Made by a program: the position numbers and the translations under genes | Notes under the pieces: generated by a model | What the model was told of the DNA's origin: nothing | The model's input: the letters and a program-made list of their open reading frames with translations, nothing else | Databases searched by the model: none | In this document: positions 2,757 to 26,837 of the stretch, in pieces | Numbering within the stretch: the stretch's first letter is position 1 | Layout: each line of letters opens with the position of its first letter | NCBI RefSeq assembly: GCF_014164505.1 | Contig: NZ_JACJFI010000011.1 | Span: 1 to 37,374 of the forward strand | Length of the DNA stretch: 37,374 bases | Reading direction: 5' to 3' | Source: Shewanella sp. SG41-4 | Lineage (GTDB): Bacteria; Pseudomonadota; Gammaproteobacteria; Enterobacterales; Shewanellaceae

Positions 2757-3734
2757 CTATTCGCTTTTAGCTTGTACGCGCCTAGTGTGCTTACTGGCTT
2801 GCGTTTGTGTGAGCAGCAACTCAGCTTTAGCACCTAAATACACATATATCCCTAAGCCTACCAATAGCCCCACGACCGCAAGCATCATCAAAATGGCCGG
2901 CTCAATATATTGCTTTTCTCCTAGTGACGCTTTAAACATAGTCAGCAAAGCTTCAATTGAAATCGCAATCAAAATGGTCGAAATAAACCGCGTAATCGTT
3001 CTTCGAGTCGAGCTGTGGCGGAAGATATCTTTATGCATCAGCACTTCTTCTTCCAAGATAGTTTTACCCAAATCAAAAATGGCTAATGCCAATGTTAGAA
3101 AAATGATAATACCAAAGGGCTGCAGCGGATCATGAGTCGCAGATACTTGGCTAAACAAGGTATAAATATCGCGGATCACTGTCCACATGAGTACGCTCAC
3201 CAGCACAAACAGACACAGTACAATCGCAGTATAGATACTTTTAAAAAACGGTGACATTTTACGCCTAGCGCTATCGCCCATCATAAACTCAATTAATCGT
3301 GTTAAGTTGACATCAATCACCACAATAACCACTTGTCCAGAAGCCGATTTAATCATTTGCGATGCCGATAAACACAGCCCGCCACCAGAGTTAGATAAAT
3401 AAGGTCGAGTAATATGGACGGTGTCGATGGCAGTCAATTGAGTAAAATAAGGTCGCTGACTTCGGTCTGCATGATGACCGCAAGCCATTAACTTAACTTG
3501 CTGATTAATCACACTGATATTAGGGCAAATCTGTTTTCCTTGCTGATCAAGTAAATAAATAAGATCAACGAAAGGATAACTTATCGCCATGTCTTCAAAA
3601 ATTTTAGCCGAGATGGGTTGTTCGAATAGATTAATGTCTCCCACACCGATCAAAATAGATTCTAATAATTCGTGTACCAAGTGTTCATATTCATGGTAAC
3701 GCTCGATCACACTTAAATAGCTCATCGCTGCCAT
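2757..3734 (-). CDS. PDC-sensor-like membrane protein
   Basis: A 325-residue protein. Residues about 1-150 resemble a PDC/Cache small-molecule sensor fold, with the typical RPYF motif near residues 94-97 and a VVIVVIDVNL strand. The C-terminal half has four hydrophobic segments near residues 166-186, 205-222, 248-268 and 278-300, followed by a basic tail (KHTRRVQAK). No kinase, HAMP, GGDEF or chemotaxis domain is present, so its output is unknown. There is no N-terminal signal or membrane segment, which is odd for a PDC domain. AAGGA lies six bases before the ATG and supports this start. The gene is divergent from the DUF1704 gene across 235 bases. It could act with an unlinked partner. I do not assign a function. 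Confidence 0.65.
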   Translation of the reverse strand: MAAMSYLSVIERYHEYEHLVHELLESILIGVGDINLFEQPISAKIFEDMAISYPFVDLIYLLDQQGKQICPNISVINQQVKLMACGHHADRSQRPYFTQLTAIDTVHITRPYLSNSGGGLCLSASQMIKSASGQVVIVVIDVNLTRLIEFMMGDSARRKMSPFFKSIYTAIVLCLFVLVSVLMWTVIRDIYTLFSQVSATHDPLQPFGIIIFLTLALAIFDLGKTILEEEVLMHKDIFRHSSTRRTITRFISTILIAISIEALLTMFKASLGEKQYIEPAILMMLAVVGLLVGLGIYVYLGAKAELLLTQTQASKHTRRVQAKSE

Positions 3735-3969: not shown

Positions 3970-5322
3970 ATGTCTGACTCTTTATTGCGTTATCAACAAG
4001 ATATTCGTCGTTTTTCTGATGAATTAATTCGCATCCAAGCGCCGATTAAAATTTTAGACTCGATAAAATGGCCAAGACAAGTTGAAGATGATTTTTTAGC
4101 TAAACAAACCAAAGAGTTACCCAATGTCAGCAATGACTTCTATCAATCGATTCCTTTATCATTTAACGCAGATCAGACCCAGACCGACCTACAAGGGTTA
4201 AAAAGTGCCATTGAACGAGGTTTAGGCAAACGCGATAAGCTAGGTAAAATTTTACTGGCTAACATTGATCAATATCGAATCGTGATAGACATGCTGCACA
4301 ATCGTGGCAAACCAATGTTTGGTAAGCTCAGTCAAGAATTGTATGGCAGTGCCAGCCACAAATTACATGGTGATCGCCACACATTACGCCAACTGGGTGA
4401 TCGCTTAAGCCATATATTTTCGTTGCCAGCTGCACGTCACATGAATAGCCGTCATCCAAAAATTGTCACCGCACCAGAAGCGGTAAATGTTCTCAGTGAG
4501 CGCTTAGTAAAGTATTTTCATAACGACGAAATTCACGTTAAGTTGAGCGATGGTATTGTGTCTGACGCAGCTGTCGGTGGTGATACTGTAAAGCTAAACA
4601 CTCGCGCCATGTTCAGCGAATCCGATTTGAATGTATATGAAGTGCACGAAGGCTGGGTTCATGTAGGCACCACGCTCAATGGCCGCGCTCAACCGCATGC
4701 GACTTGGCTCAGTGTCGGTTCTCCACGAGTGACAGCATCGCAAGAAGGCTTAGCGGTGTTAATGGAAATGCTGACGTTAAGCTCAAACCCAGGCCGTGCA
4801 CGCCGAATTAGCGATCGTGTATCTGCCGTCGACATGGCTGAGCAAGGTGCCGACTTTTTAGAAGTGTACCGATACTTTAGAAATCTAAATTTGAGTTCAA
4901 AAGACAGTTATCGTGTCACTCAGAGGGTGTTTCGTGGTGGTATGGTCGGCGGTGGCAGCTTTTTCACTAAAGATATCTCCTACGTACGCGGTTATGTTGA
5001 AAACATTAACTTTATTCGTAGCGCCATCAGCACGGGTTTACCAGAATTAATCCCTATGCTGTTTTTGGGTAAATTGGCCATCGAAGATATTCCAGTTCTG
5101 TATCAGGCCTACCAAGAGGGTATTATTGCCCACCCTAAGTATTTACCACCGATGTTTGAAGACATTAGCGGTCTTTATGCTTGGTTTGGCTTTGCTTCAG
5201 GCATCGGCAATATCGACTTAAAAGGGGTGCAACGTCATTTTGCACGCCAATTCAAAAATGTAGTCCCGACTTCTGCTGTCGACTTATTTGAAGATTCAGA
5301 GTTTGATAACAACTTCGAATAA
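3970..5322 (+). CDS. DUF1704 / QEGLA-motif protein, putative zinc peptidase
   Basis: A 450-residue protein of the family annotated as 'flavohemoglobin expression-modulating QEGLA motif protein' (TIGR02421, PF08014/DUF1704). The name motif is visible as SQEGLAVLMEM. It also carries HEGWVH at residues 226-231, an HExxxH pattern, and Glu259 of QEGLA lies 28 residues after the second His. The same HExxxH plus downstream Glu arrangement forms the zinc site of the eukaryotic MATCAP/TMCP tubulin carboxypeptidases, which contain this domain. From that family knowledge I infer a cytoplasmic zinc carboxypeptidase; the substrate in bacteria is unknown. There is no signal peptide. TAGGA seven bases before the ATG supports the start. 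It appears monocistronic and is divergent from the PDC-sensor gene. Confidence 0.85.
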   Translation: MSDSLLRYQQDIRRFSDELIRIQAPIKILDSIKWPRQVEDDFLAKQTKELPNVSNDFYQSIPLSFNADQTQTDLQGLKSAIERGLGKRDKLGKILLANIDQYRIVIDMLHNRGKPMFGKLSQELYGSASHKLHGDRHTLRQLGDRLSHIFSLPAARHMNSRHPKIVTAPEAVNVLSERLVKYFHNDEIHVKLSDGIVSDAAVGGDTVKLNTRAMFSESDLNVYEVHEGWVHVGTTLNGRAQPHATWLSVGSPRVTASQEGLAVLMEMLTLSSNPGRARRISDRVSAVDMAEQGADFLEVYRYFRNLNLSSKDSYRVTQRVFRGGMVGGGSFFTKDISYVRGYVENINFIRSAISTGLPELIPMLFLGKLAIEDIPVLYQAYQEGIIAHPKYLPPMFEDISGLYAWFGFASGIGNIDLKGVQRHFARQFKNVVPTSAVDLFEDSEFDNNFE

Positions 5323-5394: not shown

Positions 5395-5476
5395 TCAACA
5401 AAACAAGTGTAATGCTAATGCCTTGTTACCTAGCGAGTTTGCTATAGTGTAACAACGGCTATGGTTGAGACTTGCT

Positions 5477-6466
5477 ATGAAACACATTTTATTTTCAGCT
5501 TTATTTTCAACGTTATTCTCCAGCTTGATATTGATCAGTGGCTGTACGCCAGCCACACCGTCACAAGCATTAGGCACTTTAGAGCGCGACCGAGTCATTC
5601 TTCGTTCAACCGCAGCAGAAATCATTACTGCACAACCCATAAAAAAAGGCATGCAAGTCAACGCCGGTGACTTATTAGTCCAATTTGATACCCACAAACA
5701 AGCCGCGCGCTTAGCAGTAATGCAAGCGGAAGTGGTCAAAGCCCAAGCCTACTTATTAAAACTCACCAATGGTGAACGCCCAGAAGATATCGCCAGTGCC
5801 AATTCGGCGTTAAAGAGTGCCAACGCAGCCAAAATCGAAGCGCAAAAATCTTATCGACGCAGCGCGAGTTTATTAGCAAAAAACCTAGTCAGTGAAGCTG
5901 AGCGCGATCGGGCTTTAGCGCTTCGCGATCAAGCCAATGCAGAATATGATGCCGCCAACGATCGACTCACAATATTGATCAAAGGTGTTCGCCAAGAAGA
6001 TATTTTTCAAGCACAAGCCGCACTCGATGCTGCCAATGCCAACCTACGTTACGAGCAGCAGGTTTACAGCGACTTAAGCATTCGTGCAACACGCAGTGGT
6101 AAATTAGATAACTTGCCCTACAACGTAGGCGAGCGCGTCCAACTGAGTGCAATAGTTGCGGTTATTCAAGCTGATGCGGCGCCCTACGCCAGAGTGTATA
6201 TACCTGAACCCTATGCAGCCAAACTTCATATAGGCCAAACGTTGTCGGTCAGTGTAGACGGTATCGACAGCACATTTAACGGCACACTGCGTTGGATAAG
6301 TACTGAACCGGCATTTACCCCCTACTACGCACTGAATCAAGCAGACAGGTCACGATTAGCCTTTCTAGCAGAAGTGAGTTTAGACCGTTCGGCCAGCGAG
6401 CTACCTACGGGCATACCAGCCCAAGTTATATTACCAACACAAGTTATATTACCAACCCAAAAATGA
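5477..6466 (+). CDS. HlyD-type membrane fusion lipoprotein of an ABC exporter
   Basis: A 329-residue periplasmic adaptor, first gene of an adaptor-ATPase-permease operon. The N-terminus is a lipoprotein signal with lipobox ISGC, the lipidated Cys being residue 23. A biotinyl-lipoyl half (AEIITAQPIKKGMQVNAGDL) is followed by a long Ala/Gln/Glu/Lys coiled-coil hairpin at about residues 75-190, then the second lipoyl half and a beta-barrel region, as in YbhG/HlyD adaptors. A TTG at 5465 is in frame but the ATG at 5477 starts right at the signal peptide. The last codons contain an exact 18-bp tandem duplication (QVILPT twice, 6422-6457). The stop overlaps the ATPase start in an ATGA, implying translational coupling. 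The exported substrate is unknown. Confidence 0.85.
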   Translation: MKHILFSALFSTLFSSLILISGCTPATPSQALGTLERDRVILRSTAAEIITAQPIKKGMQVNAGDLLVQFDTHKQAARLAVMQAEVVKAQAYLLKLTNGERPEDIASANSALKSANAAKIEAQKSYRRSASLLAKNLVSEAERDRALALRDQANAEYDAANDRLTILIKGVRQEDIFQAQAALDAANANLRYEQQVYSDLSIRATRSGKLDNLPYNVGERVQLSAIVAVIQADAAPYARVYIPEPYAAKLHIGQTLSVSVDGIDSTFNGTLRWISTEPAFTPYYALNQADRSRLAFLAEVSLDRSASELPTGIPAQVILPTQVILPTQK

Positions 6467-7434
6467 CATTATCCGTAGACCCACAATGGGTAATTAAAGC
6501 TCATGGACTCACCAAAAAATTTGGCGACTTTGCTGCTGTTGAGCAATTAGACTTATTGGTGCCGAAAGGCAACATTTACGGTTTTTTGGGCCCAAATGGC
6601 TGTGGTAAGTCAACCACCATTAGAATGTTAACTGGTTTACTCACCCCCACCGAAGGCACTATCAATGTCATGGGATTAGCCATTCCGAAGCAGGCTGAAG
6701 CATTACGCCATAATATTGGTTATATGACCCAAAAGTTTTCTCTCTACGATGACTTAACCGTTAAAGAAAACCTGCAATTTATTGGTCGAATCTATGGTAT
6801 CGACAATAGTGTCTGCAAAAAACGCATTGATCAACTGCAAAGCACTTACAAACTAAGCCAGTATCAGCATCAACTGGCTGGTACTCTCAGCGGTGGACAA
6901 AGACAACGATTAGCCCTCGCCTGCGCCTGTTTAAATCAACCCAAGTTACTGTTTTTAGATGAACCCACGTCAGCCGTTGATCCACAAAACAGGCGTGACT
7001 TTTGGGAGCAACTGTTCGATTTATCTGAACAAGGCACCAGTATTTTAGTGACTACCCATTATATGGATGAAGCCGAACGTTGCCATAAAATTGCCATTAT
7101 GGAAAAAGGCAGGATCAGAGCCGATGACACGCCAAAATCATTAATGGATAACATCAATGCCCATGTGGTTGAAATCAACACCACTGATTTAAGGCCGTTA
7201 AAACAAGCATTAATCAGCCACATTGAAGTGACCTCTGCGGCGCAGTTAGGCCATAGATTACGGGTATTGGTCAGCAAACAAGTAGTGGATCCTATCTCTT
7301 GGTTACTGCATCAGTGCCAACAGCATAATCACCCCGTTAACCTGCAAGATATTCACTTAGTTAGCGCTAATCTTGAAGACGTGTTTGTCAGCCATACTGG
7401 CCAGCGTGTTCCAGCCTCCCATGAAGCAACATAA
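6463..7434 (+). CDS. ABC-2 type exporter ATPase
   Basis: A 323-residue ATP-binding subunit with all standard motifs: Walker A GPNGCGKST at residues 43-51, Q-loop Gln90, signature LSGGQ at 142-146, Walker B LLFLDEP at 162-168 and the switch His199 in TTHYMDEA. The C-terminal 80 residues form the extra domain typical of ABC-2 drug and export ATPases. It starts inside the last codon of the adaptor gene and is followed 11 bases later by the permease. It resembles one half of YbhF, whereas enteric YbhF carries two fused ATPase units. It acts at the cytoplasmic face, powering export with the permease. Confidence 0.92.
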   Translation: MTLSVDPQWVIKAHGLTKKFGDFAAVEQLDLLVPKGNIYGFLGPNGCGKSTTIRMLTGLLTPTEGTINVMGLAIPKQAEALRHNIGYMTQKFSLYDDLTVKENLQFIGRIYGIDNSVCKKRIDQLQSTYKLSQYQHQLAGTLSGGQRQRLALACACLNQPKLLFLDEPTSAVDPQNRRDFWEQLFDLSEQGTSILVTTHYMDEAERCHKIAIMEKGRIRADDTPKSLMDNINAHVVEINTTDLRPLKQALISHIEVTSAAQLGHRLRVLVSKQVVDPISWLLHQCQQHNHPVNLQDIHLVSANLEDVFVSHTGQRVPASHEAT

Positions 7435-7445
7435 GGGCTAACAAC

Positions 7446-8555
7446 ATGCTGAACAGTATTCGCCATAGTTATATGCGTATTCACGCCATTACCGCTAAAG
7501 AAGTTAAGCAGCTTATGCGCGATCGAATTACCTTTGCCATGGTGATAATGATCCCGCTGATCCAGCTATTGTTATTCGGCTATGCCATCAATACTGATGT
7601 GCGTGCAATACCGGTAGCAATTGTTGATCAAAGTGATTCAGCTGCAGGACGCTGGATAGTCGAAGCGGTAAAAGTCACCCAGGTAGTGGAAGTCACATCC
7701 TATCTCACGACAGCAGAGCAAGCACAGGCCGCTATTCGCCGTGGCCACATTAAAGCGGCATTAATTTTACCGCCTACTTTGAATGAAAAAATCGCACGCA
7801 ATGAACCGATTGGCCAATGGATAGTCGATGGTTCAGACACCATGATTGCAGGCGCGATAAAGCAACTGCGCAACCTATCGCTCAACGATATTGTACCGGA
7901 GCAAACTAGCAACCAATCTCGGTTTGAAGTCAGCTTATTTTATAATCCGGAGCAGCGATCCGCGGTGAATATTGTTCCAGGTTTAATCGCCGTCATTTTG
8001 ACCATGACCATGGTGCTGTTTACTTCATCAGCTATCGTTCGTGAGCGTGAACGTGGCAACCTTGAATTATTAATCACCACCCCAATAAAGCCAATAGAAC
8101 TGATGATTGGAAAAATATTGCCATACATCGTCATCGGCTTAGTGCAAATGACCATTATTTTAGGCTTAGGCAATATTATTTTTGCAGTGCCCATCAATGG
8201 CGCTATCAGTCATTTATTGTTGGGCACGTTACTGTTTATTACCGCGAGCCTGACATTAGGGTTAATCATATCTACTATTGCAAAAACACAGCTACAAGCC
8301 ATGCAAATGACCATTTTTGTATTATTACCGACCATATTACTCTCTGGATTTATCACCCCATTAGAAGCCATGCCGACAGCAGCAAAATGGATTGCAGAAG
8401 CACTGCCAGGAACCCATTTTATGCGGATGATCCGAGCTATTGTGCTTAAAGGGGCAACGTTAGGTGAGTTAATAAACGATGTGTTATGGCTGGTGGGTTT
8501 TACAGTCATTGGATTATGGATTGCAGCGATGCGATTCAGTAAACGATTAGATTAA
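7446..8555 (+). CDS. ABC-2 type exporter permease
   Basis: A 369-residue integral membrane subunit. It has an N-terminal transmembrane helix (about residues 28-47), a large extracytoplasmic domain to about residue 170, then five hydrophobic segments, the ABC-2 membrane topology of YbhS/YbhR. The conserved VRERERGNLELL motif precedes the third segment. Enteric ybhGFSR has two permeases; here only one is present, so the transporter is presumably a homodimer. It completes the adaptor-ATPase-permease operon. Cationic drugs or other hydrophobic compounds are possible substrates by family analogy only. An imperfect hairpin without a T run (8556-8581) follows the stop. Confidence 0.88.
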   Translation: MLNSIRHSYMRIHAITAKEVKQLMRDRITFAMVIMIPLIQLLLFGYAINTDVRAIPVAIVDQSDSAAGRWIVEAVKVTQVVEVTSYLTTAEQAQAAIRRGHIKAALILPPTLNEKIARNEPIGQWIVDGSDTMIAGAIKQLRNLSLNDIVPEQTSNQSRFEVSLFYNPEQRSAVNIVPGLIAVILTMTMVLFTSSAIVRERERGNLELLITTPIKPIELMIGKILPYIVIGLVQMTIILGLGNIIFAVPINGAISHLLLGTLLFITASLTLGLIISTIAKTQLQAMQMTIFVLLPTILLSGFITPLEAMPTAAKWIAEALPGTHFMRMIRAIVLKGATLGELINDVLWLVGFTVIGLWIAAMRFSKRLD

Positions 8556-14298: not shown

Positions 14299-15210
<912 letters not shown>

Positions 15211-15261
15211 TTAGGAGTCTATACCAATCAGCTAACATGATTTATTTAACCTAAACCATTT

Positions 15262-15315
15262 AGCCGTTTGGACGTCTATATGTCCATATACTAGTTTAAC
15301 TGCATACTAAGTCAA
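15262..15315 (-). promoter_or_regulatory. metF promoter with MetJ operator
   Basis: On the minus strand a -35 TTGACT (15310-15315) and -10 TAGTAT (15288-15293) are 16 bases apart. Immediately downstream, over the likely start point, lie tandem 8-bp met boxes: AGCCGTTT (15262-15269, 6 of 8 to AGACGTCT), GGACGTCT (15270-15277, 7 of 8) and ATATGTCC (15278-15285, 5 of 8). MetJ dimers bind such arrays cooperatively with S-adenosylmethionine. Confidence 0.8.
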
Positions 15316-15730
15316 GCTAAAAAACCACCAATTAACTAATTTGTAGCAATCGCATTAACGCTAGGCCTAAATAATAGGTTATAGAAAACTGCTTGAATCA
15401 GTTTTTTGTTCAACTGCCTGCAGGCTTTTTGTTCATCAGCCTGCAGAAAGTGTCATTTGATAATGTTCAAATCGTTTTGATCAAAAGTGTCAGCACTCGG
15501 GCTCTAAACAAGATTATGAGGAATGAGTGCAAAAATAGGGGGTGATATTCAGTAGATGTAATGACTCCTCCCCCCCCAAATTATCAAGTTGCATAATGTT
15601 TAGTTTTATTAGCAATTGCTTTTATTTGCGAACTGGATCGACTTTTATAAAACCTAACTGCCTAAATCAGGTTTATTGTGCTAAATTTAGAACTCACCGT
15701 TCTAGATTTTTTATCTTTTGAGAGGCAACC
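15316..15730. other. Repeat- and palindrome-rich intergenic region before the DUF1097 gene
   Basis: No gene is visible. In order there is a hairpin AAAACTG/CAGTTTT followed by T residues (15385-15407), two direct repeats of a 21-base block containing GCCTGCAG (15403-15423 and 15426-15446), an FNR-like site (15457-15470), a 12-base palindrome TTTTGATCAAAA (15475-15486) between two copies of AAAGTGTCA (15447-15455 and 15484-15492), and a run of eight C near 15570-15577. It is the probable control region of the DUF1097 gene. Confidence 0.6.
15457..15470 (+). promoter_or_regulatory. Possible FNR/EtrA binding site
   Basis: TTGATAATGTTCAA matches the FNR consensus TTGATNNNNATCAA at 9 of 10 positions. 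It lies 260 bases upstream of the DUF1097 gene, which makes direct control possible but not certain. Confidence 0.4.
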
Positions 15731-16222
15731 ATGGCGCATCGTTGGCAAATTGCAATTTCTGCTGGTTTATTAGCTGCTGTTTGGGCTGGTCTAGCTGATG
15801 TATTCCATCTTGTGACATGGGTCGGCTTTCTGGGCTGCAGTACCTTTTTTGCTCAAACTGATATGAGCGCTAAGGGCATGATGATAGCGATGATGACCAA
15901 TCTTTCCGGTGTATTCTGGGGCTGGTTAATTATTGCAGGCAGCGACGTATTTGGTTCGCCCATGATCAGCTATGCACTAACAGGCATTGTCACCGCATTT
16001 ATGTGCTTACAAGCCAGTAATAAAAACTTCGCCTTTATTCCCGGCACCTTTATCGGTTGTTGTATCACATTTGCGTTAAATGCAGATCTAGCCGCTATCA
16101 TTCCGCCACTTATTATCGGCGCCGCACTCGGTTACAGCATGAGCCTACTCACAGGCCTCTTAATAACGCTAACGGATAAAACCACTGAATCATTAAAAGA
16201 TGACGCGGTAGAAGAAGCCTAA
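15731..16222 (+). CDS. ycdZ: DUF1097 inner-membrane protein (YcdZ-like)
   Basis: A 163-residue hydrophobic protein with about five membrane segments. It matches the DUF1097/YcdZ family along its length: VTWVGFLGCSTFFA, LSGVFWGWLIIAGS, ALTGIVTAFMCLQAS, and FIPGTFIGCCITFA are the family blocks, with a charged cytoplasmic tail (TTESLKDDAVEEA). The function of YcdZ is not established; transport has been suggested. GAGAGG five bases before the ATG supports the start. It is monocistronic, with a long, repeat-rich leader that holds a possible FNR site. No sure terminator is seen; a weak hairpin TTTAGCT/AGCTAAA (16277-16298) follows. Confidence 0.85.
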   Translation: MAHRWQIAISAGLLAAVWAGLADVFHLVTWVGFLGCSTFFAQTDMSAKGMMIAMMTNLSGVFWGWLIIAGSDVFGSPMISYALTGIVTAFMCLQASNKNFAFIPGTFIGCCITFALNADLAAIIPPLIIGAALGYSMSLLTGLLITLTDKTTESLKDDAVEEA

Positions 16223-16424
16223 ACACCCAAGGGCTTAGATTGTGTCAGCTTAGGGTTAACTAACAGCGTCCAAGTTTTTAGCTTTCTGAGTAGCTAAATT
16301 TATTTAACTCAGCTCTCACGAGGATTTAACAGATAAACAAATAAGTTTGTGGATTTAAATTTGGCCGCTAAAGCAGTCAAATTATTTATCTTCATAAATT
16401 GCCATCCTATTAACTGGCGTAGAC

Positions 16425-17219
16425 TCAAATATGTTTGGCATCAAATTGCTGAACCAATTCGATTGCATGTTCAATTCTTGTTACGAAAGCTATCTCATCT
16501 TTTTCATAATACTCAATGAATACGCCAGCTAAATAATATTCATTTATTTTATTTTTATTTGGAATAAACCAATAAGGTCCACCACTACAACCTCGAGGAT
16601 GAAGTGTTTTTTGACCTTTTATTTTTTTAGACCAATGAATAGGGTAATGGGAACCAGCCTCTTTATTGAACTTAGAAAAGTTGCAGTTTTGAAAGAAATT
16701 AAACGAGTATGTCCATAACGCACCAGAAAAATGTTTAGTTTGATTATTAAGGCACTTTGCTGTTTTATTTTTTGATGATGGAAAACCTTGTAATATTTGC
16801 ATATCCACATTTAAAAAAGACTTATTTAAAGTTGTTTTATTAGTTGGAATTGCTAATTTTTGACACTGTTCGTAATTATCATTTTCAGGGTTAATTTGAA
16901 TTGCAGCTAAATCAAATTGACTATCTGCTACTTCGCTTTCTGAATTCACGGTTCTCTTGGATCCCGCTAACGACAGTTGAAACATTTCGGTATGTATTGC
17001 GATAATAAAGTGGCTCTTCGCAGATTGGATTGCATCTATGACATGGGATGCTGTGATAAAGTATATGCCTAGATTGTACTCAAGGAAAAAGCCAGTCCCT
17101 TCCATTTCTGGACGATTAAACTTATCTAAGCAGAAAATAGGAACAACATAGCTATCAAGAAGCTCTCCGGCTTCTTTCAATATTTCCCCATAATTCTCAT
17201 AAGATTCTACATCGCCCAT
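16425..17219 (-). CDS. Orphan trypsin-like serine protease
   Basis: A 264-residue protein with the S1/trypsin-like triad motifs in order: His59 in YFITASHV, Asp103 in FDLAAIQI and Ser212 in PRGCSGGPYW. No signal peptide or membrane segment precedes the domain, so it is probably cytoplasmic, unlike DegP-type proteases, and it has no PDZ domain. A longer frame reaches an ATG at 17273, but AAGGAA seven bases before the ATG at 17219 favours the shorter form. The coding sequence is noticeably AT-rich and Asn/Lys/Phe-rich compared with its neighbours and sits between a metabolic gene and a structured non-coding stretch, suggesting acquisition by transfer. Stand-alone proteases of this sort occur in defence and stress loci, but nothing here proves that role. 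Confidence 0.7.
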   Translation of the reverse strand: MGDVESYENYGEILKEAGELLDSYVVPIFCLDKFNRPEMEGTGFFLEYNLGIYFITASHVIDAIQSAKSHFIIAIHTEMFQLSLAGSKRTVNSESEVADSQFDLAAIQINPENDNYEQCQKLAIPTNKTTLNKSFLNVDMQILQGFPSSKNKTAKCLNNQTKHFSGALWTYSFNFFQNCNFSKFNKEAGSHYPIHWSKKIKGQKTLHPRGCSGGPYWFIPNKNKINEYYLAGVFIEYYEKDEIAFVTRIEHAIELVQQFDAKHI

Positions 17220-17777
17220 TGAAAATTCCTTGACAGATAATATTTTAGTATTGATATGATACGTTGTTTGCATCGCATCAATAGCTTGTTGGATTAAGCA
17301 ACTGTCACATCCACATTAATCGGTAACTCTATCTTTAGTTTAAATACTATAGGAATTAGTTTTCTATGATAGTTGTTCCTGTATAGCACGTCGGTTAATC
17401 ATTTGTTCTAATTATAACTTTCAGGCTCAATAACATTGAGGTCGTTGAAGAAAATAGCGTGAATCCAGACATGGATGTCTGGTTAGCTTTCGAGGGGAAG
17501 GGACGCCCCATCGGAAGCGTTAGCATTTTCACTCTTTATTAATAAAGTGGGCCGAGGCTGGATTAAAACGAAGTTAAAAGCTGAATCAATTTCCGTCGCG
17601 ACCTTTTCGCTTCTCAGAAAATGTTGCCGGAACGCTGAGGGTTTGCAAAGGGGTACAAGCGTTTTACCCCTTTGATCTGGTGTGGGCGAAGCGCCACGAC
17701 GTTAGTGGCCGCAGGTCATAAAGCAATAAGGCCATAAAACGAGATTCCAGCTCATAAACATTCCCGAGATGACATAG
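17220..17777. other. Structured non-coding stretch between the protease and metL
   Basis: About 590 bases lie between the protease start and the metL stop, with no credible gene. From about 17430 the composition shifts to higher GC and a chain of hairpins appears: CCAGACA/TGTCTGG (17465-17482), GGGG/CCCC (17494-17509), a 9-bp stem AAAGGGGTA/TACCCCTTT (17647-17673), GTGG-CG/CG-CCAC (17682-17697), and an alternative GCCAC/GTGGC (17693-17709). This may be a dispersed intergenic repeat, a decayed mobile element or a structured RNA. I cannot tell which from one copy. Confidence 0.5.
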
Positions 17778-17804
17778 AAAAGACCATTAATAATGGTCTT
17801 TTTT
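17778..17804 (-). terminator. Terminator after metL
   Basis: An 11-bp stem AAAAGACCATT/AATGGTCTTTT (17778-17788 and 17792-17802) with a three-base loop, symmetric and able to act in both directions. It sits 10 bases past the metL stop. Confidence 0.88.
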
Positions 17805-17811
17805 AACAAAA

Positions 17812-20205
17812 CTACTCTTGCAACAGGTCTTTGCAGATATGCACTAAATCCGACTGCACCGCAGCGGCCGTCACCTCACGCCCTGCCCCTGGGCCGCGAA
17901 TAATCAAAGGATTGCCTTGATAAAAAGCACTGCGAATAACAAACACATTATCGCCTGGGGTTAAATTGGCATAAGGATGATTATTATCAACCCACTGCAA
18001 ACTCACTTCAGCCTGTAACTTGCCTTCCACTTTATCCAGCGAAGCCACATAACGTAGCACCTTGTTCTGTTCAGCCGCAGCTATATACTGCTGCAACAAA
18101 TCATTATCTAACTCACTAATGCGCGCTAAAAAGTCTTCAAGTGATAACTCTGCTAAAGCTTGAGGCACCAATGAGTTGAGACTAATATCGTCTAGCTCTA
18201 CCGCTAAACCTATCTCGCGAGCTAAGATTAACAACTTACGTTGCATATCGCGGCCAGATAAATCATCACGCGGATCGGGTTCTGTAATGCCTAAACTGCG
18301 AGCATGTAGCACTAATTCTGAGAACGGCTTGCTGCCATCATAATTTTCGAACAACCAACATAACGTGCCAGAAAAAATACCACCGACAGCTTCAATGGTG
18401 TCACCACTATTACGTAAGTCATTTAACGCATGTTGAATAGGCAAACCTGCGCCACAGCTGGCGTTATAACGCCAAAATAAGCGCCGATTACTCAGCTGCT
18501 GCTTTAATTCACGATAAAATGGCAATGGCCCTGAACCGGCTAATTTATTGGCACTCACCACATGAATACCACGGGCAAATAGCTCAGGATATTGTAAGGT
18601 TAAGGCGGCACTAGCACTGATATCTAAGGCGACAATTTCATCGCATGATAACTGCGCTAATTGATCAAACAGTTGATCATAATCCCATTCAATGCCTTGC
18701 TGTTGATAATCTTGCTGCCATTGTTCAAGGTTAATTCCGTCGTTAGAAATTAATGCTTTTTTCGAACCAACTAAACCAACGAGCTCAACAGAGGCTTCAA
18801 GTTCATGGTCTAATGCTGGACTGGCGCGTTTAAATAAATCAATCCACGCCTCACCAATATTACCCACTCCCAGCAATAACACTCCAATACGCATTCTTGG
18901 CCCTGCACAACGACGATGTACTTTTTGGGTCAATAAACTCACTTGAGCTTGCGGTACTAAGGTAACTAAACTTAATGCATCTTGATAAATCGGTTTGGCA
19001 TCACGGCTGAGTAACCGGGCAAAACTGCGTCTAAAGTGATGAGCATCGGCACTGACTAATGCCACTAGGCCTAAGTCAGTTTGGGCACTCAATTCTTCAA
19101 TCAAAAATTCACTGCTGTATTGGTTAAGCAAAGCTTGCACTTGTTTTTGGCTTTCAAGCGTTAACGCCAACTCAAACTTATGTTGTGCTAGCGACCAATA
19201 AGCTAACGGCGTGATACCTGCTTTATCCAAAATAGTCAGTAATGGGTCAATCTCTGCGTTCATTTTAAAACTAAACAACACTACTTCATTTAAGTTAGTC
19301 ACGACTGGCGCACTCGCAGATGAACTCAGTGGCGCAATTAAGGTGAAGTCGGTGTGCGAAGCATAACTTGAGCGTACCGCTAAACTCACTTTAGTATTAA
19401 ACAGTGGCTGTAAGGTACGAGAATGCAGTACCGGAGAGCCTAAACGCGCTAAGCGATCGGCTTCTGCTAGTGACATACTCTTGAGTAATTTGGCATCATT
19501 AATTTTATTAGGGTCGGCGTTAAATACCCCTTCAACGTCGGTCCAAATGGTCACACGTTCGATGTCTGCTAAGCTGGCTATCAAGGTGGCACTAAAATCT
19601 GAACCATTACGGCCCAGTAGTAAGGTATCGCCGTGACGGTTTGCACATATAAAGCCGGTGATCACTAAACGCTCTTGCGGGTGCAAGGCTAATAAGGCTT
19701 GTACCTTGTCACGAGACTCAGCGACTAAAATATTGGGTACGGCACCTTCATCGGCAACCAAAATAGAGCACGCATCGACATGAGTCGCTGCCACGCCCAT
19801 TTCTCGTAACAAAGCAGCCATCAAACGCGCTGACCAACGTTCACCAAAACTCACCACTTGGTTTAATTGGTAATCGTTACGTTGCTCTAAAGATAATAAG
19901 CTGACTAACTGAGATTTGTCGGTAGACAAACGTTCGCGTAAATCACGCGCTTGCTCGTTTGACAATAATTGTTCAATTAACGTCTGCTGGTAGCTGATCA
20001 GAATTTGCAGCTCTTCTTGCCACAACTGACCACTGTCACGCAGGCTCAATAATTTGTATAAGAAGTTAGTCGTCTTTCCGGCGGCGGATACCACAACTAA
20101 ATCATCACTCTGACCATGCGTAAGTAAAATATGTGCAACACGGCGATAGCAATCTGCATCCGCTAAACTTGAACCACCAAACTTATGTAAATGACTTCGC
20201 GTCAT
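17812..20205 (-). CDS. metL: Bifunctional aspartokinase II / homoserine dehydrogenase II
   Basis: A 797-residue fused enzyme that phosphorylates aspartate and later reduces aspartate semialdehyde to homoserine, feeding methionine synthesis. The kinase half opens with HKFGGSS and has SFGERWSA and LLLGRNGSDFSAT; the dehydrogenase half begins near residue 438 with the NAD(P) motif GVGNIGEAW and carries SANKLAGSG and DPRDDLSGRDMQRK. The degenerate linker rather than clear ACT regulatory repeats fits MetL more than ThrA. The frame extends to a TTG at 20223, but AAGGAG six bases before the ATG at 20205 fixes the start. It lies 131 bases after metB and is probably co-transcribed with it under MetJ control. 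Confidence 0.95.
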   Translation of the reverse strand: MTRSHLHKFGGSSLADADCYRRVAHILLTHGQSDDLVVVSAAGKTTNFLYKLLSLRDSGQLWQEELQILISYQQTLIEQLLSNEQARDLRERLSTDKSQLVSLLSLEQRNDYQLNQVVSFGERWSARLMAALLREMGVAATHVDACSILVADEGAVPNILVAESRDKVQALLALHPQERLVITGFICANRHGDTLLLGRNGSDFSATLIASLADIERVTIWTDVEGVFNADPNKINDAKLLKSMSLAEADRLARLGSPVLHSRTLQPLFNTKVSLAVRSSYASHTDFTLIAPLSSSASAPVVTNLNEVVLFSFKMNAEIDPLLTILDKAGITPLAYWSLAQHKFELALTLESQKQVQALLNQYSSEFLIEELSAQTDLGLVALVSADAHHFRRSFARLLSRDAKPIYQDALSLVTLVPQAQVSLLTQKVHRRCAGPRMRIGVLLLGVGNIGEAWIDLFKRASPALDHELEASVELVGLVGSKKALISNDGINLEQWQQDYQQQGIEWDYDQLFDQLAQLSCDEIVALDISASAALTLQYPELFARGIHVVSANKLAGSGPLPFYRELKQQLSNRRLFWRYNASCGAGLPIQHALNDLRNSGDTIEAVGGIFSGTLCWLFENYDGSKPFSELVLHARSLGITEPDPRDDLSGRDMQRKLLILAREIGLAVELDDISLNSLVPQALAELSLEDFLARISELDNDLLQQYIAAAEQNKVLRYVASLDKVEGKLQAEVSLQWVDNNHPYANLTPGDNVFVIRSAFYQGNPLIIRGPGAGREVTAAAVQSDLVHICKDLLQE

Positions 20206-20336
20206 TACTGACTCCTTAAACAACTACGACTTTTATTGCGACTGCTAGACTTCTATTTTGAAACCAATAGTGTTGCAAGTGCATGTTTTACTATTTTACC
20301 CAATTTGGGCCAAACCACAGCTAACTTAAACTCGAA

Positions 20337-21506
20337 TTAAGCTGATTTTATCGCAGCAACAGCTGCTAGGCCTGCTTGAATATCGGCCAAGAGGTCATCT
20401 GCATCTTCAATACCGACAGATAGTCTCAATAAAGTCTCTTTAATACCAGCCTCTTGCCTTGCTTGTGGGTCCATTGCTCTATGGGTCATAGTGGCCGGAA
20501 CGGCGACTAAACTTTCCACCCCGCCTAAACTTTCGGCAACACTAAACAACGACAGCGCCTTTAAAAATGCCACCACTTCCGCTTCGCCGCCGATTAACTC
20601 AAAACTTAACATAGCACCAAAGCCTTGTTGTTGTTTTGCCGCAATTTCGTGACCTGGATGGTCTTTTAAACCCGGATAATAGACCTTTGCCACTACATCA
20701 CTGGCGTTGAGTAACTCAACAATCTTTTGTGCGTTACGTTGATGCTCACGAATTCGTACCGCTAAAGTACGTAAGCCTCGCAAGGTTAAATAACTGTCAA
20801 ATGCTGAACCCGTAAGCCCAAGAGTATTTGACCACCAATGTAACAACTCACCCAATTCAGGATCTTTAGCCACTACAGCCCCACCAACTACATCACTGTG
20901 ACCATTAATGTATTTGGTGGTTGAGTGGATCACAATGTCTGCACCCAATAACAATGGCTGCTGTAATATTGGCGATAAAAAAGTGTTGTCTGCTGTGACT
21001 AACGCGCCAACGTCATGGCAAGCTTGGCTAATGGCAGCAATGTCGACCACGCGCAATAAAGGATTCGATGGTGTTTCTAACCACACCATTTTCGGTTTTT
21101 GATCTATTGCTTTACTCAGCGCTTGCGTATCAGTTTGATCAACGACCAATAACTTAAATTGGCCTTTTTTGGCCAAGTTAGTAAATAAGCGATAACTGCC
21201 GCCATAACAATCGTGCGGCACAACCAATAAATCGTCTGGGCCAAGTAGGCTTGTCACCAATGTAATTGCAGCCATGCCAGTACAAGTCACAACACCAGTA
21301 GCGCCTTGCTCAAGTTTGGCGAGTGCGTCACCTAAAATACATCGAGTTGGATTACCCGAGCGGCTGTAATCAAACTCGCGCGGATTATTGTGGCCATCGA
21401 ACGAATAATTGGTCGATAAATAAATCGGTGGCACGATAGCACCATGTTGTGTGTCTGTTTCAATACCTTGGCGAACGGCCAATGTGGCGCTTTTGTGCTT
21501 AGTCAT
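20337..21506 (-). CDS. metB: Cystathionine gamma-synthase
   Basis: A 389-residue PLP enzyme that condenses an O-acylhomoserine with cysteine to cystathionine. Family marks are YSRSGNPTR, the cofactor-stacking region near CTGMAAI, ADNTFLSP and the Schiff-base Lys198 in HSTTKYINGHSD, followed by the Ser-Leu-Gly-Gly-Val-Glu-Ser block near the C-terminus. It lies first in a metBL operon and is divergent from metJ. AGGAG seven bases before the ATG supports the start. The upstream region holds two clusters of met boxes around its predicted promoter. Confusion with cystathionine beta-lyase or gamma-lyase is possible from sequence alone, but the metJ-metB-metL context settles it. Confidence 0.95.
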   Translation of the reverse strand: MTKHKSATLAVRQGIETDTQHGAIVPPIYLSTNYSFDGHNNPREFDYSRSGNPTRCILGDALAKLEQGATGVVTCTGMAAITLVTSLLGPDDLLVVPHDCYGGSYRLFTNLAKKGQFKLLVVDQTDTQALSKAIDQKPKMVWLETPSNPLLRVVDIAAISQACHDVGALVTADNTFLSPILQQPLLLGADIVIHSTTKYINGHSDVVGGAVVAKDPELGELLHWWSNTLGLTGSAFDSYLTLRGLRTLAVRIREHQRNAQKIVELLNASDVVAKVYYPGLKDHPGHEIAAKQQQGFGAMLSFELIGGEAEVVAFLKALSLFSVAESLGGVESLVAVPATMTHRAMDPQARQEAGIKETLLRLSVGIEDADDLLADIQAGLAAVAAIKSA

Positions 21507-23667: not shown

Positions 23668-25380
23668 ATGAGAACTCTCATCTCAATATTAGTGGCTAAC
23701 GCGCTCTTTATGAGCGGCGCAAGCCTAGCAGCAGATACCGATGCACAAAAAATTGCCGACCTTAAACAGCAACTCGCTACTATTAATGAAGATCTTGATG
23801 ATTTAAATTCACGAGTTGACAAAACCGAGCGCCACACAGCATTAGACAGAATTGCAATTACTGGTGATTTTAGAACTAAAGCACATTCATTACATTATCA
23901 AAACGTCACTTGGAACCCAGCCATGAACGTTAACTTTTCTGACTTTGGCGCTAAAGCCATGTCAGGAGTATTTGGCGATCCAAATAGTGCGACCTCACCG
24001 TTAGGTCAAATGATGATGGCAAACCCTGATTTAGCTAGCGCGTTTCAAAGCGGTATGCTTCAAGGCGTTATGCCAATGTTGTTAGGCCAAAAAACCCAAC
24101 AAGACATTGATAACGATATATTTTACACCACTCGTTTACGTCTAAACATTGATGCCAAAGTGTGGGATAACGTCAGCTTTGCAGGACGCTTAACCATGTT
24201 TAAGAGCTGGGGAGACTCTGCTGGGGTTAAAGTATTCGACTCATGGAACTCATTCACAATGGACGGCACCAGTAGCGGTAGCACCAGTGGTGATGAGTTA
24301 AAAGTAGAGCGCGCCTATTTTAACTGGAAAGACATTAACGGCAGTGGCACTTACCTTTCTATCGGACGTCGCCCTTCAACGTACGGTCCACCAAATCATT
24401 ATCGTGAAAATGAACTCAGAGGCGGCACGCCATCTGGTCACTTAGTCAATTTCAACTTTGATGGTCTTACCTTAGGTTACAACTTGGGTGATATCACTGG
24501 TATTGAAGGCCAAACAGTGCGTTTTTGCTACGGTCAGGGCTTTGAGTCACAGTACGGCAATGGCGAATTGTTTGGTGACATCATCACTAAAGATACCCAC
24601 CTCGGCGGGTTTAATATCGACGTGATTAATGACGGTAACCATTTCTTACAGTTCACTTTATTCGGTGCTAAAGATGTCAATGATGGCTTTACGGGCACCA
24701 TGGCATTCCCTACTCAACTGGCGGGTATCTTTGCCCCAACCATGTATCAAGACATGCAAAAGTTTGACAACTTTAACTTCGTCACCCGTGTACAACCTAG
24801 CGGTGTCATTGGTGATATGTACTTAGGTGGATTAGGTTATGCCTATGAAACCGATGACGACATGAAAATGTTTGCCTCATTAGGATGGACTCGTGCTGAA
24901 CCTAACGGCAATGCAGGTTTATTCGGCGGCATGTTAAGCGATGCAATATTTGAAGCAGAGTTGAACAGCACTGGTACTGAAATCATTATGGTGCCAAAAG
25001 AAACTGTTGATAGCGACACCAAAGATGGTTACGGCATTTATGTAGGTATGCAAATTCCTGCACCATACGGCAAATTCGGTTTGGAATATAACTACGGTTC
25101 TAAATACTGGAGTCCCTTCACCCAAGCACAAGACGACCCAATCGGCAGTAAGTTAGCCACTCGCGGCCATGTTGCTGAAGCCTATTATATCTTTGATATT
25201 AATCCAAAAATGTTTATCAAGTTAGCTGGTTTGTATTACGACTATGAATATACCGGAAGTGGCTCACCAGTAGGTGCACCGATGAAGGTTGACGATGTGA
25301 TTGCCGGTAGCGCGTACTCAATGTTGCCCGTTGTTGACACAGCCTATGACGTCAATGCCTCACTGACCGTTAACTTCTAA
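23668..25380 (+). CDS. DUF3373 family outer-membrane porin-like protein
   Basis: A 570-residue exported protein. After a signal peptide (cut near SLA-ADTDAQ) comes a short coiled coil at about residues 27-57 (IADLKQQLATINEDLDDLNSR) and then a long series of amphipathic beta strands ending in VNASLTVNF with a terminal Phe, as expected for an outer-membrane barrel. The family, DUF3373, is often encoded next to multiheme cytochromes. Its likely role is to form or support an outer-membrane conduit or to aid substrate entry for the octaheme reductase; this is inference from context. A strong AAGGGGAG ribosome site precedes the ATG. It is the middle gene of the operon. Confidence 0.82.
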   Translation: MRTLISILVANALFMSGASLAADTDAQKIADLKQQLATINEDLDDLNSRVDKTERHTALDRIAITGDFRTKAHSLHYQNVTWNPAMNVNFSDFGAKAMSGVFGDPNSATSPLGQMMMANPDLASAFQSGMLQGVMPMLLGQKTQQDIDNDIFYTTRLRLNIDAKVWDNVSFAGRLTMFKSWGDSAGVKVFDSWNSFTMDGTSSGSTSGDELKVERAYFNWKDINGSGTYLSIGRRPSTYGPPNHYRENELRGGTPSGHLVNFNFDGLTLGYNLGDITGIEGQTVRFCYGQGFESQYGNGELFGDIITKDTHLGGFNIDVINDGNHFLQFTLFGAKDVNDGFTGTMAFPTQLAGIFAPTMYQDMQKFDNFNFVTRVQPSGVIGDMYLGGLGYAYETDDDMKMFASLGWTRAEPNGNAGLFGGMLSDAIFEAELNSTGTEIIMVPKETVDSDTKDGYGIYVGMQIPAPYGKFGLEYNYGSKYWSPFTQAQDDPIGSKLATRGHVAEAYYIFDINPKMFIKLAGLYYDYEYTGSGSPVGAPMKVDDVIAGSAYSMLPVVDTAYDVNASLTVNF

Positions 25381-25406
25381 CGCTAACTTAACCTTCTAAC
25401 TTGGCC

Positions 25407-25428
25407 CCCCTGAGCACAAGCTCAGGGG
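25407..25428 (+). other. GC-rich hairpin just upstream of otr
   Basis: Perfect 9-bp stem CCCCTGAGC/GCTCAGGGG (25407-25415 and 25420-25428) with an ACAA loop. No T run follows; the otr ribosome site AAGGA starts two bases later (25430-25434). It is a candidate RNA processing or stability element. Confidence 0.75.
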
Positions 25429-25442
25429 TAAGGACAAACATC

Positions 25443-26837
25443 ATGAAACTATTATCAGCACTGGCTGTATTACTGTTATTAAGCAGTAGCGCACAGGGTG
25501 CCTTTAACCACAAAGAGGCGCTGAAAGGGCCTTTTGCTAATGGCCCTGAAGTGACGACACAATGCTTAACCTGCCATAAAGAACATGCTGAAGAGTTTAT
25601 GAAATCTTCACATTGGACTTGGGAGTTAGAGCAAAAACTACCTGACCGCACAGTAATGCGCGGTAAAAAGAACAGTATTAATAACTTTTGTGTATCGATA
25701 TCGGGTAACGAACCACGCTGTACCAGTTGTCATGCCGGTTATGGTTGGAAAGACTCTACATTTGATTTTAAAGACATGACCAAAGTCGATTGCTTAGTCT
25801 GTCACGACACCACAGGGACTTACATTAAAGATCCTGCAGGTGCAGGCGAGGCCTTAGCAAGAGTCAATTTAGCCAATGTTGCCCAAAATGTAGGTGCACC
25901 CGTGCGTGACAATTGCGGCAGTTGCCACTTTTACGGGGGCGGCGGTGATGCGGTTAAACACGGCGATTTAGACTCATCAATGTCTTATCCAGACAAAGCG
26001 ACCGATGTCCACATGGACACCGATGGAAATGACTTCCAGTGTCAAACTTGTCACATTACTGAAAATCATCAAATTACCGGTAACTCGATGGGCGTATCAC
26101 CTGGTGGGGAAAACAAAATTGGCTGTGTAAACTGCCATGATGCTGCGCCTCATAAAAATGCAAAGCTTAATACCCACTCGGAAACGGTAGCATGTCAAAC
26201 TTGTCATATACCATCATTTGCTAAAAATGAACCCACCAAAATGCGTTGGGATTGGTCACAGGCAGGACAAGATCTTCCGGAAACCACAGACCAATACGGC
26301 AAGCACACCTTTATGAAAAAGAAAGGCAGCTTTATTTGGCAAAAAGACGTTAAACCACAATATGCCTGGTTTAATGGCCGCGCCGATGCGTATATGGCTG
26401 GCGACAAAATGGACCCCACTAAAACGGTTAAATTGGCTTATCCATTAGGTGATATTCGCGACCCTAAAGCTAAAATCTATCCATTTAAAGTGCACACGGG
26501 TAAGCAAATCTATGATGCTAAACTTAATATTCTAATAACCCCTAAAACGTACGGTGAAGGCGGTTACTGGGATAAGTTTGATTGGGACTTAGCTGCTAAA
26601 TTAGGCATGGAAGCTAACCCAACCATGGTAGAAAAAGGACTCAAATACAGTGGTCAGCATGGCTTTGTTGAAACCGAAATGTGGTGGCGCATCAACCACA
26701 TGGTGTCACCAAAAGACAAGGCACTACAGTGTAATGACTGCCACAACAAAGGCGAGCGTTTAGACTGGAAAGCCCTTGGTTATGATGGCGACCCAATGAA
26801 AAATCGTAAAGGTGTAAAACACACTAAAGCTGACTAA
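25443..26837 (+). CDS. otr: Octaheme tetrathionate reductase
   Basis: A 464-residue periplasmic multiheme cytochrome with a signal peptide (MKLLSALAVLLLLSSSAQG, then AFNHKEAL). Eight CxxCH sites are visible, at residues 41-45, 93-97, 117-121, 158-162, 199-203, 227-231, 250-254 and 430-434, the number and spread of Shewanella Otr. Otr reduces tetrathionate to thiosulfate, and also nitrite and hydroxylamine in vitro. Its active heme is ligated by a lysine; Lys172 after the fourth heme would be residue 153 of the mature chain, which agrees with the position I recall for that ligand. An in-frame TTG at 25401 is upstream, but AAGGA eight bases before the ATG at 25443 and the signal peptide fix the start. 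It ends the cytochrome-porin-reductase operon. Confidence 0.93.
   Translation: MKLLSALAVLLLLSSSAQGAFNHKEALKGPFANGPEVTTQCLTCHKEHAEEFMKSSHWTWELEQKLPDRTVMRGKKNSINNFCVSISGNEPRCTSCHAGYGWKDSTFDFKDMTKVDCLVCHDTTGTYIKDPAGAGEALARVNLANVAQNVGAPVRDNCGSCHFYGGGGDAVKHGDLDSSMSYPDKATDVHMDTDGNDFQCQTCHITENHQITGNSMGVSPGGENKIGCVNCHDAAPHKNAKLNTHSETVACQTCHIPSFAKNEPTKMRWDWSQAGQDLPETTDQYGKHTFMKKKGSFIWQKDVKPQYAWFNGRADAYMAGDKMDPTKTVKLAYPLGDIRDPKAKIYPFKVHTGKQIYDAKLNILITPKTYGEGGYWDKFDWDLAAKLGMEANPTMVEKGLKYSGQHGFVETEMWWRINHMVSPKDKALQCNDCHNKGERLDWKALGYDGDPMKNRKGVKHTKAD

Follow-up and report, generated by a model that had tools for sequence, protein, structure and literature searches.

The 37,374-base contig C22 (NZ_JACJFI010000011.1) of the 5.0 Mb draft assembly of Shewanella sp. 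SG41-4, referred to here in its full length as the window, carries at 3970-5322 (+) an open reading frame for a protein of 450 amino acids. Our analysis provides good support for placing this protein in the MATCAP family (PF08014; TIGR02421, "QEGLA") and its fold, as a predicted metallo-carboxypeptidase, presumably cytoplasmic, of a bacterial branch that we call branch A. The S6--L-glutamate ligase RimK is present in 76 of 77 genomes with branch A, drawn from 24 families, as would be expected of a protease that resets the product of RimK. As for the substrate, the odds are about even that it consists of glutamate tails made by RimK, most likely those on S6. This substrate hypothesis is the new part of the present study; the homology is already in Pfam.

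RimK of Pseudomonas extends the C-terminus of ribosomal protein S6 (RpsF) with alpha-linked glutamates, and the endopeptidase RimB is described as cutting these tails back to about four glutamates (PMC10092738, PMC11957791). RimK of E. coli is reported to limit itself (PMC10092738). According to the 2020 study, RimB alone cannot restore unmodified RpsF, the stationary-phase loss of RpsF glutamate tails in P. fluorescens is independent of RimB, and the identity of the "reset" protease, in the authors' words, remains to be determined (PMC7343187). In the scenario proposed here, once RimB has shortened long glutamate tails to a short stub, the branch-A carboxypeptidase, if specific for glutamate, would take off the remaining stub and reset the ribosome. 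Among the open-licence PubMed Central matches listed, no title, abstract opening or passage joined MATCAP or QEGLA proteins with RimK or RpsF, except for an expression table in PMC10308900 that names both genes.

Results

The protein matches PF08014 at 443.4 bits against a cut-off of 27 (residues 41-411 on positions 2-362 of the 365-position profile) and TIGR02421 at 437.4 bits against a curated cut-off of 338.65. The original prediction, made from the sequence alone, had named a metal site of HEGWVH at residues 226-231 and E259 within QEGLA at residues 258-262, and all of these positions were confirmed. HEGWVH (4645-4662, +) aligns with HEIGTH of MATCAP1 and lies within helix 217-239 of the model; QEGLA (4741-4755, +) lies within helix 252-268, and its E259 aligns with the second glutamate of EEG in MATCAP1. 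H226 and H231 are the predicted metal ligands, E227 the predicted general base and E259 the predicted third ligand, and the HExxxH with a downstream Glu-Gly that characterizes MATCAP in Pfam is thereby present (H226, E227, H231, E259-G260). All four residues are conserved without exception in the 16 relatives aligned, and HE...H...EG was found in 169 of 170 scanned family members, the sole exception being a fragment (L181). The motif by itself is weak evidence, because 278 of 20000 shuffles of the protein (1.4%) also contained HE...H with a glutamate 20-40 residues downstream; it is the two profile scores, the invariance among relatives and the retention across the family that make the assignment decisive. 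No second PF08014 gene was found in a search of the source genome, and the protein is 98% identical to a named relative from Shewanella frigidimarina.

Branch profiles separate the fetched bacterial members cleanly into three branches, namely A, to which the window's gene belongs (mostly 425-480 amino acids, some frames being read longer), B (about 630-810 amino acids) and C (377-408 amino acids). In the 62 branch-A loci with listed scores the A profile reached at least 207 and the others at most 151; 79 named loci that were scanned were likewise assigned to A. Fetched loci were assigned by branch profile and all others by score, frame length and end of the Pfam match, as was the case for all 16 branch-B genomes of one set. 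G577 was counted as branch B despite a contig-end cut, and the broken or split genes of G021, G366 and G651 and the fragment of G237 (L181) were excluded from the branch tallies.

The predicted structure of the Shewanella protein shows the MATCAP fold, with 17% identity to MATCAP1 over the fold. As regards the fold, the structural comparison proposed with the original prediction came out in its favour, and the homology to MATCAP that it claimed is right. MATCAP1/TMCP1 (KIAA0895L) and TMCP2 are tubulin carboxypeptidases and deglutamylases, and are reported to take residues off the C-terminus of tubulin and to reverse its polyglutamylation (PMC10499314). The spacing between the two glutamates of the site, taken from the alignment, is 32 in the Shewanella protein and 35 in MATCAP1. 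Unlike the hosts of MATCAP1 and TMCP2, the Shewanella host to our knowledge has no tubulin. In Protein Data Bank (PDB) searches MATCAP1 was reached by a mixed-branch profile and also by the branch-B and branch-C profiles; a single-sequence search with the Shewanella protein gave no useful match, and a profile of branch A alone gave zero entries at E <= 0.1. To judge by these profile searches, whose alignments differ in size and diversity, branch A looks the farthest of the three from MATCAP1. Carboxypeptidases of family M32 use HExxH, in contrast to the HExxxH of the Shewanella protein, and neither the single-sequence nor the mixed-branch search of the PDB gave a sequence match to M32 or DUF885 proteins. 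PF08014 is the protein's only Pfam match, and the retropepsin-like domain of RimB (PF05618) is absent from it.

The protein is likely to be an active peptidase. The earlier interpretation as a zinc carboxypeptidase is supported in part; "zinc" in it is a guess. Among the characterized relatives, TMCP1 is reported to be activated by manganese and cobalt and inhibited by zinc, and TMCP2 to take all three metals (PMC10499314).

RimK was scored as present where the NF007764 match exceeded its cut-off, and the counts omit one branch-A genome (G047) and three genomes of branch B or C (G036, G051, G057). With branch A, RimK is present in 14/14 Shewanella genomes plus G342 and, in other genera, in 22/22 and 39/40. 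By comparison, it is present in 122 of 299 sampled genomes of the phylum, in 16/22 Shewanella without branch A, in 3/3 branch-C genomes of the phylum sample, and with branch B in 7/9 genomes within Shewanella and 3/9 + 5/16 = 8/25 outside it (G286, which reached 326 bits where 331 are required, being scored as without RimK). The fairest comparison comes from 115 Gammaproteobacteria drawn so that every family code occurs once: RimK was found in 11/11 genomes with branch A, 3/7 with branch B, 1/1 with a broken gene and 32/96 without PF08014 (branch A versus no PF08014, Fisher p = 1.9e-5, with family controlled and order-level kinship uncontrolled). RimB (PF05618) was present in 10/11 branch-A genomes of the draw versus 38/96 of those without PF08014 (p = 0.0013). 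Genomes of 1.4-1.8 Mb retain branch A together with RimK, and since branch-A genomes with RimK reach down to 1.4 Mb, genome size alone is unlikely as the cause. All 14 listed genomes of family f28 carry branch A, in a listing that omits 12 of the 299 phylum genomes; f28 was recognized as Pseudomonas through one member's protein, which shares 93% identity with a named protein from Pseudomonas. In 14 control genomes, E. coli among them, there was no PF08014 match, and E. coli had no PF05618 match either. One genome (G088) carries two branch-A copies (L165, L167) and RimK, and no RimB domain.

A physical linkage of the two genes was seen in part of the genomes. In 17 of 31 named Shewanella loci rimK lies within 6.5 kb of the branch-A gene, always upstream and divergent, and in three of these 17 only 0.3-0.7 kb away; two copies of this neighbour were checked, and both exceeded the NF007764 cut-off. 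Outside Shewanella, the branch-A gene is within 8 kb of rimK in 4 of 62 genomes. In two of them, from one family (L187, L188), it abuts rimB-rimK at distances of 10 and 34 nucleotides; in L189 rimB is at 1.1 kb and rimK at 1.6 kb, and in L190 rimB-rimK and an AstE-like gene are 7-8 kb away (rimK within 7.6 kb). About 0.4 of 62 would be expected by chance (P = 7e-4; counted as three families, P = 4e-4) under a model of random positions and one rimK per genome.

On our proposal branch A would have the RimK partner and the substrate in common with RimB, whose gene adjoins rimK at these four linked loci outside Shewanella. RimB differs in being an aspartic, retropepsin-like endopeptidase (PF05618) of unrelated fold and mechanism, and in leaving a stub of about four glutamates, as described in PMC10092738.

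The S6 of the source genome ends in EENAEENAE. Contig C111 of that genome carries rimB-like, rimK and AstE-like genes, the RimB match being below the NCBI equivalog cut-off. The AstE/aspartoacylase-like gene (L042:8578-9591) stands directly behind rimK, and its best NCBIfam match is far below the cut-off. On contig C80 a second rimK (L043:8787-9344) follows isc genes and is cut by the contig end; over 182 amino acids it shares 77% identity with the complete copy.

Branch B was noticed in passing to form a second ligase-carboxypeptidase pairing. It has the catalytic domain in common with branch A, here beside an ATP-grasp ligase, and it differs in having its own ligase and amidohydrolase and in not tracking RimK outside Shewanella. 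An N-formylglutamate amidohydrolase (FGase, PF05013)-like front part is present in 17/22 loci (Pfam was run on two of them, and one match fell below the cut-off), and a GshB-like ATP-grasp ligase adjoins the gene within 200 nucleotides on the same strand in 18/22 (identified by NF009110 in the one copy checked). In one genome set, 13 of 16 branch-B genomes had a weak RimK-profile match on the same strand, at most 2 kb away. The ligase overlaps or abuts the FGase-MATCAP fusion in L026 (6552-9567), L016, L020, L023, L025, L027-L031, L171, L174, L175 and L179; in L170, L177, L178 and L180, from other classes of the same phylum, amidohydrolase, carboxypeptidase and ligase each have a gene of their own, the three lying side by side. 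Branch A had no adjacent GshB-like or FGase partner in the scanned loci, the GshB-like gene of L204 being 4.4 kb off. Carrying the partnership over to the window's gene was therefore rejected, the partners belonging to branch B.

Besides the metal site, three segments have residues in common with MATCAP1: NGRAQ, from N237 to Q241 (4678-4692, +), in which N and Q are invariant and recur in MATCAP1 as NNARQ; R319-V-F-R322-G-G324 (4924-4941, +), with R319, R322 and G323 in common; and T333-K334-D335..Y338 (4966-4983, +), with K334, D335 and Y338 in common. R319 and R322 are candidate carboxylate-binding residues.

Neighbourhood as the sole guide to function was rejected, for the neighbours of branch A vary by genus: in Shewanella they are a Cache-like gene and an exporter, in relatives of Cellvibrio a Rieske protein and a 120-amino-acid gene of no assigned function, and elsewhere an M48 peptidase. 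L116 (3.9 kb) was excluded from these scans, and several loci have short flanks. The divergent neighbour at 2757-3734 (-), a member of cluster 6, recurs in 23 of the 31 named Shewanella loci; the window's copy has no Pfam match, and a relative in L033 has a weak Cache sensor match of 38 bits, below the cut-off. Directly behind the branch-A gene, at 5465-8555 (+), stands an exporter of HlyD, ATP-binding cassette (ABC) ATPase and ABC-2 permease, which is not a general partner, since cluster 43, that of its first gene, occurs in 10 of the 31 named Shewanella loci. The gene of about 120 amino acids (L103:11339-11707; with its relatives cluster 38, from 13 loci) follows branch A by about 16 nucleotides on the same strand in Cellvibrio relatives and in L163, and has no Pfam or NCBIfam match. 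An apparent RsgA neighbour, present in several loci of high GC content, was not used; it was Pfam-checked in L164 alone, and its cluster holds shadow reading frames. Elsewhere in the window, a DUF3373 protein and, following it, a multihaem cytochrome that has an MtrC/MtrF-like domain (23668-26837, +) are possibly an electron-transfer pair, and 14299-21506 (-), with methylenetetrahydrofolate reductase, bifunctional aspartokinase-homoserine dehydrogenase and a Cys/Met metabolism pyridoxal phosphate enzyme, is an ordinary methionine-synthesis region.

Discussion

A family that deglutamylates tubulin and a tie to RimK across 24 bacterial families together fit the role of a reset protease. We give equal weight to the view that the branch-A enzyme trims the RimK-made glutamate tail on S6/RpsF and to the view that it does not. 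Several observations count against it. One branch-A genome, G654, is 95% complete and has no RimK over the cut-off; the RimK match of four f114 genomes and of G220 crosses a single stop codon, and that of G547 is split in two. Many genomes have RimK and lack branch A, so the dependence is one-way at best, and a RimK-profile score over the cut-off is no proof that S6 is the substrate of that RimK. The rimK next to branch A in Shewanella is 67-70% identical to the RimB-linked copy of the source genome, no rimB was found in the named Shewanella loci, and both rimK copies of the source genome lie on contigs other than the window's. In addition, the AstE-like gene behind rimK is another possible tail-trimmer.

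A MATCAP-fold carboxypeptidase with an unrelated substrate, its link to RimK reflecting no more than the shared ancestry of lineages that keep both, is unlikely in our judgement, yet it has in its favour that 58 of the 62 non-Shewanella branch-A genomes have no rimK within 8 kb of the gene (some contigs being short). It also draws on the uncontrolled relatedness at the level of orders and on the fact that RimB likewise tracks branch A; the missing linkage and the uncontrolled relatedness weigh against the S6 proposal too. Shared ancestry is countered by the linkage of branch A and rimK in four families including Shewanella, by the retention of both genes in genomes of 1.4-1.8 Mb, and by branch B, which occurs partly in the same families (f1, f167) and does not track RimK outside Shewanella. 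Less probable still is the degradation of free poly-alpha-glutamate or other acidic peptides instead of the S6 tail. RimK is reported to make free poly-alpha-L-glutamate as well, and its overproduction to raise antibiotic sensitivity (PMC11957791), and such a substrate would yield the same association with RimK; the closest characterized relatives, however, are described as working on folded protein tails (PMC10499314).

An action on glutathione-like or gamma-glutamyl compounds, as the FGase fusion and the GshB-like ligase of branch B might suggest, appears very improbable for branch A, which has neither partner adjacent. In RNA-seq data for Photobacterium damselae, a GshB and a QEGLA gene that bear consecutive locus tags are listed with 38- and 28-fold changes, RimK rose 52-fold in the same data, and the text gives these changes as induction in low salt (PMC10308900). 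The QEGLA gene concerned is presumably of branch B, to judge by its GshB neighbour, and its expression as reported agrees with the link between branch B and its ligase; the rise of RimK speaks against a glutathione-like substrate. We give hardly any credence to a protein inactive as a peptidase that regulates flavohemoglobin expression. The name of TIGR02421 says so, and no experimental basis for it appeared among the literature matches listed; an inactive scaffold is not expected to keep the metal ligands and the catalytic glutamate in all members but one fragment.

The S6 proposal has a wider counterpart, which we consider possible at somewhat less than even chances: a bacterial writer-eraser cycle on the C-terminal tail of a ribosomal protein, analogous to the tail code of tubulin, with branch A as the RpsF reset protease and branch B in a parallel cycle with its own ligase. 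The writer would be the ATP-grasp ligase RimK and the eraser a MATCAP-fold carboxypeptidase. The tubulin ligases TTL and TTLL share the ATP-grasp fold of RimK. If both branches act in this way, the pairing of ligase and MATCAP-fold enzyme would predate its role on tubulin.

Our results name a candidate for the protease that the published Pseudomonas model of ribosome remodelling, as set out in PMC7343187, needs for the last glutamates of RpsF. If true, a widespread family now labelled as flavohemoglobin modulators would gain a function, and the editing of ribosomal tails in bacteria would be tied to the editing of tubulin tails through a common eraser fold.
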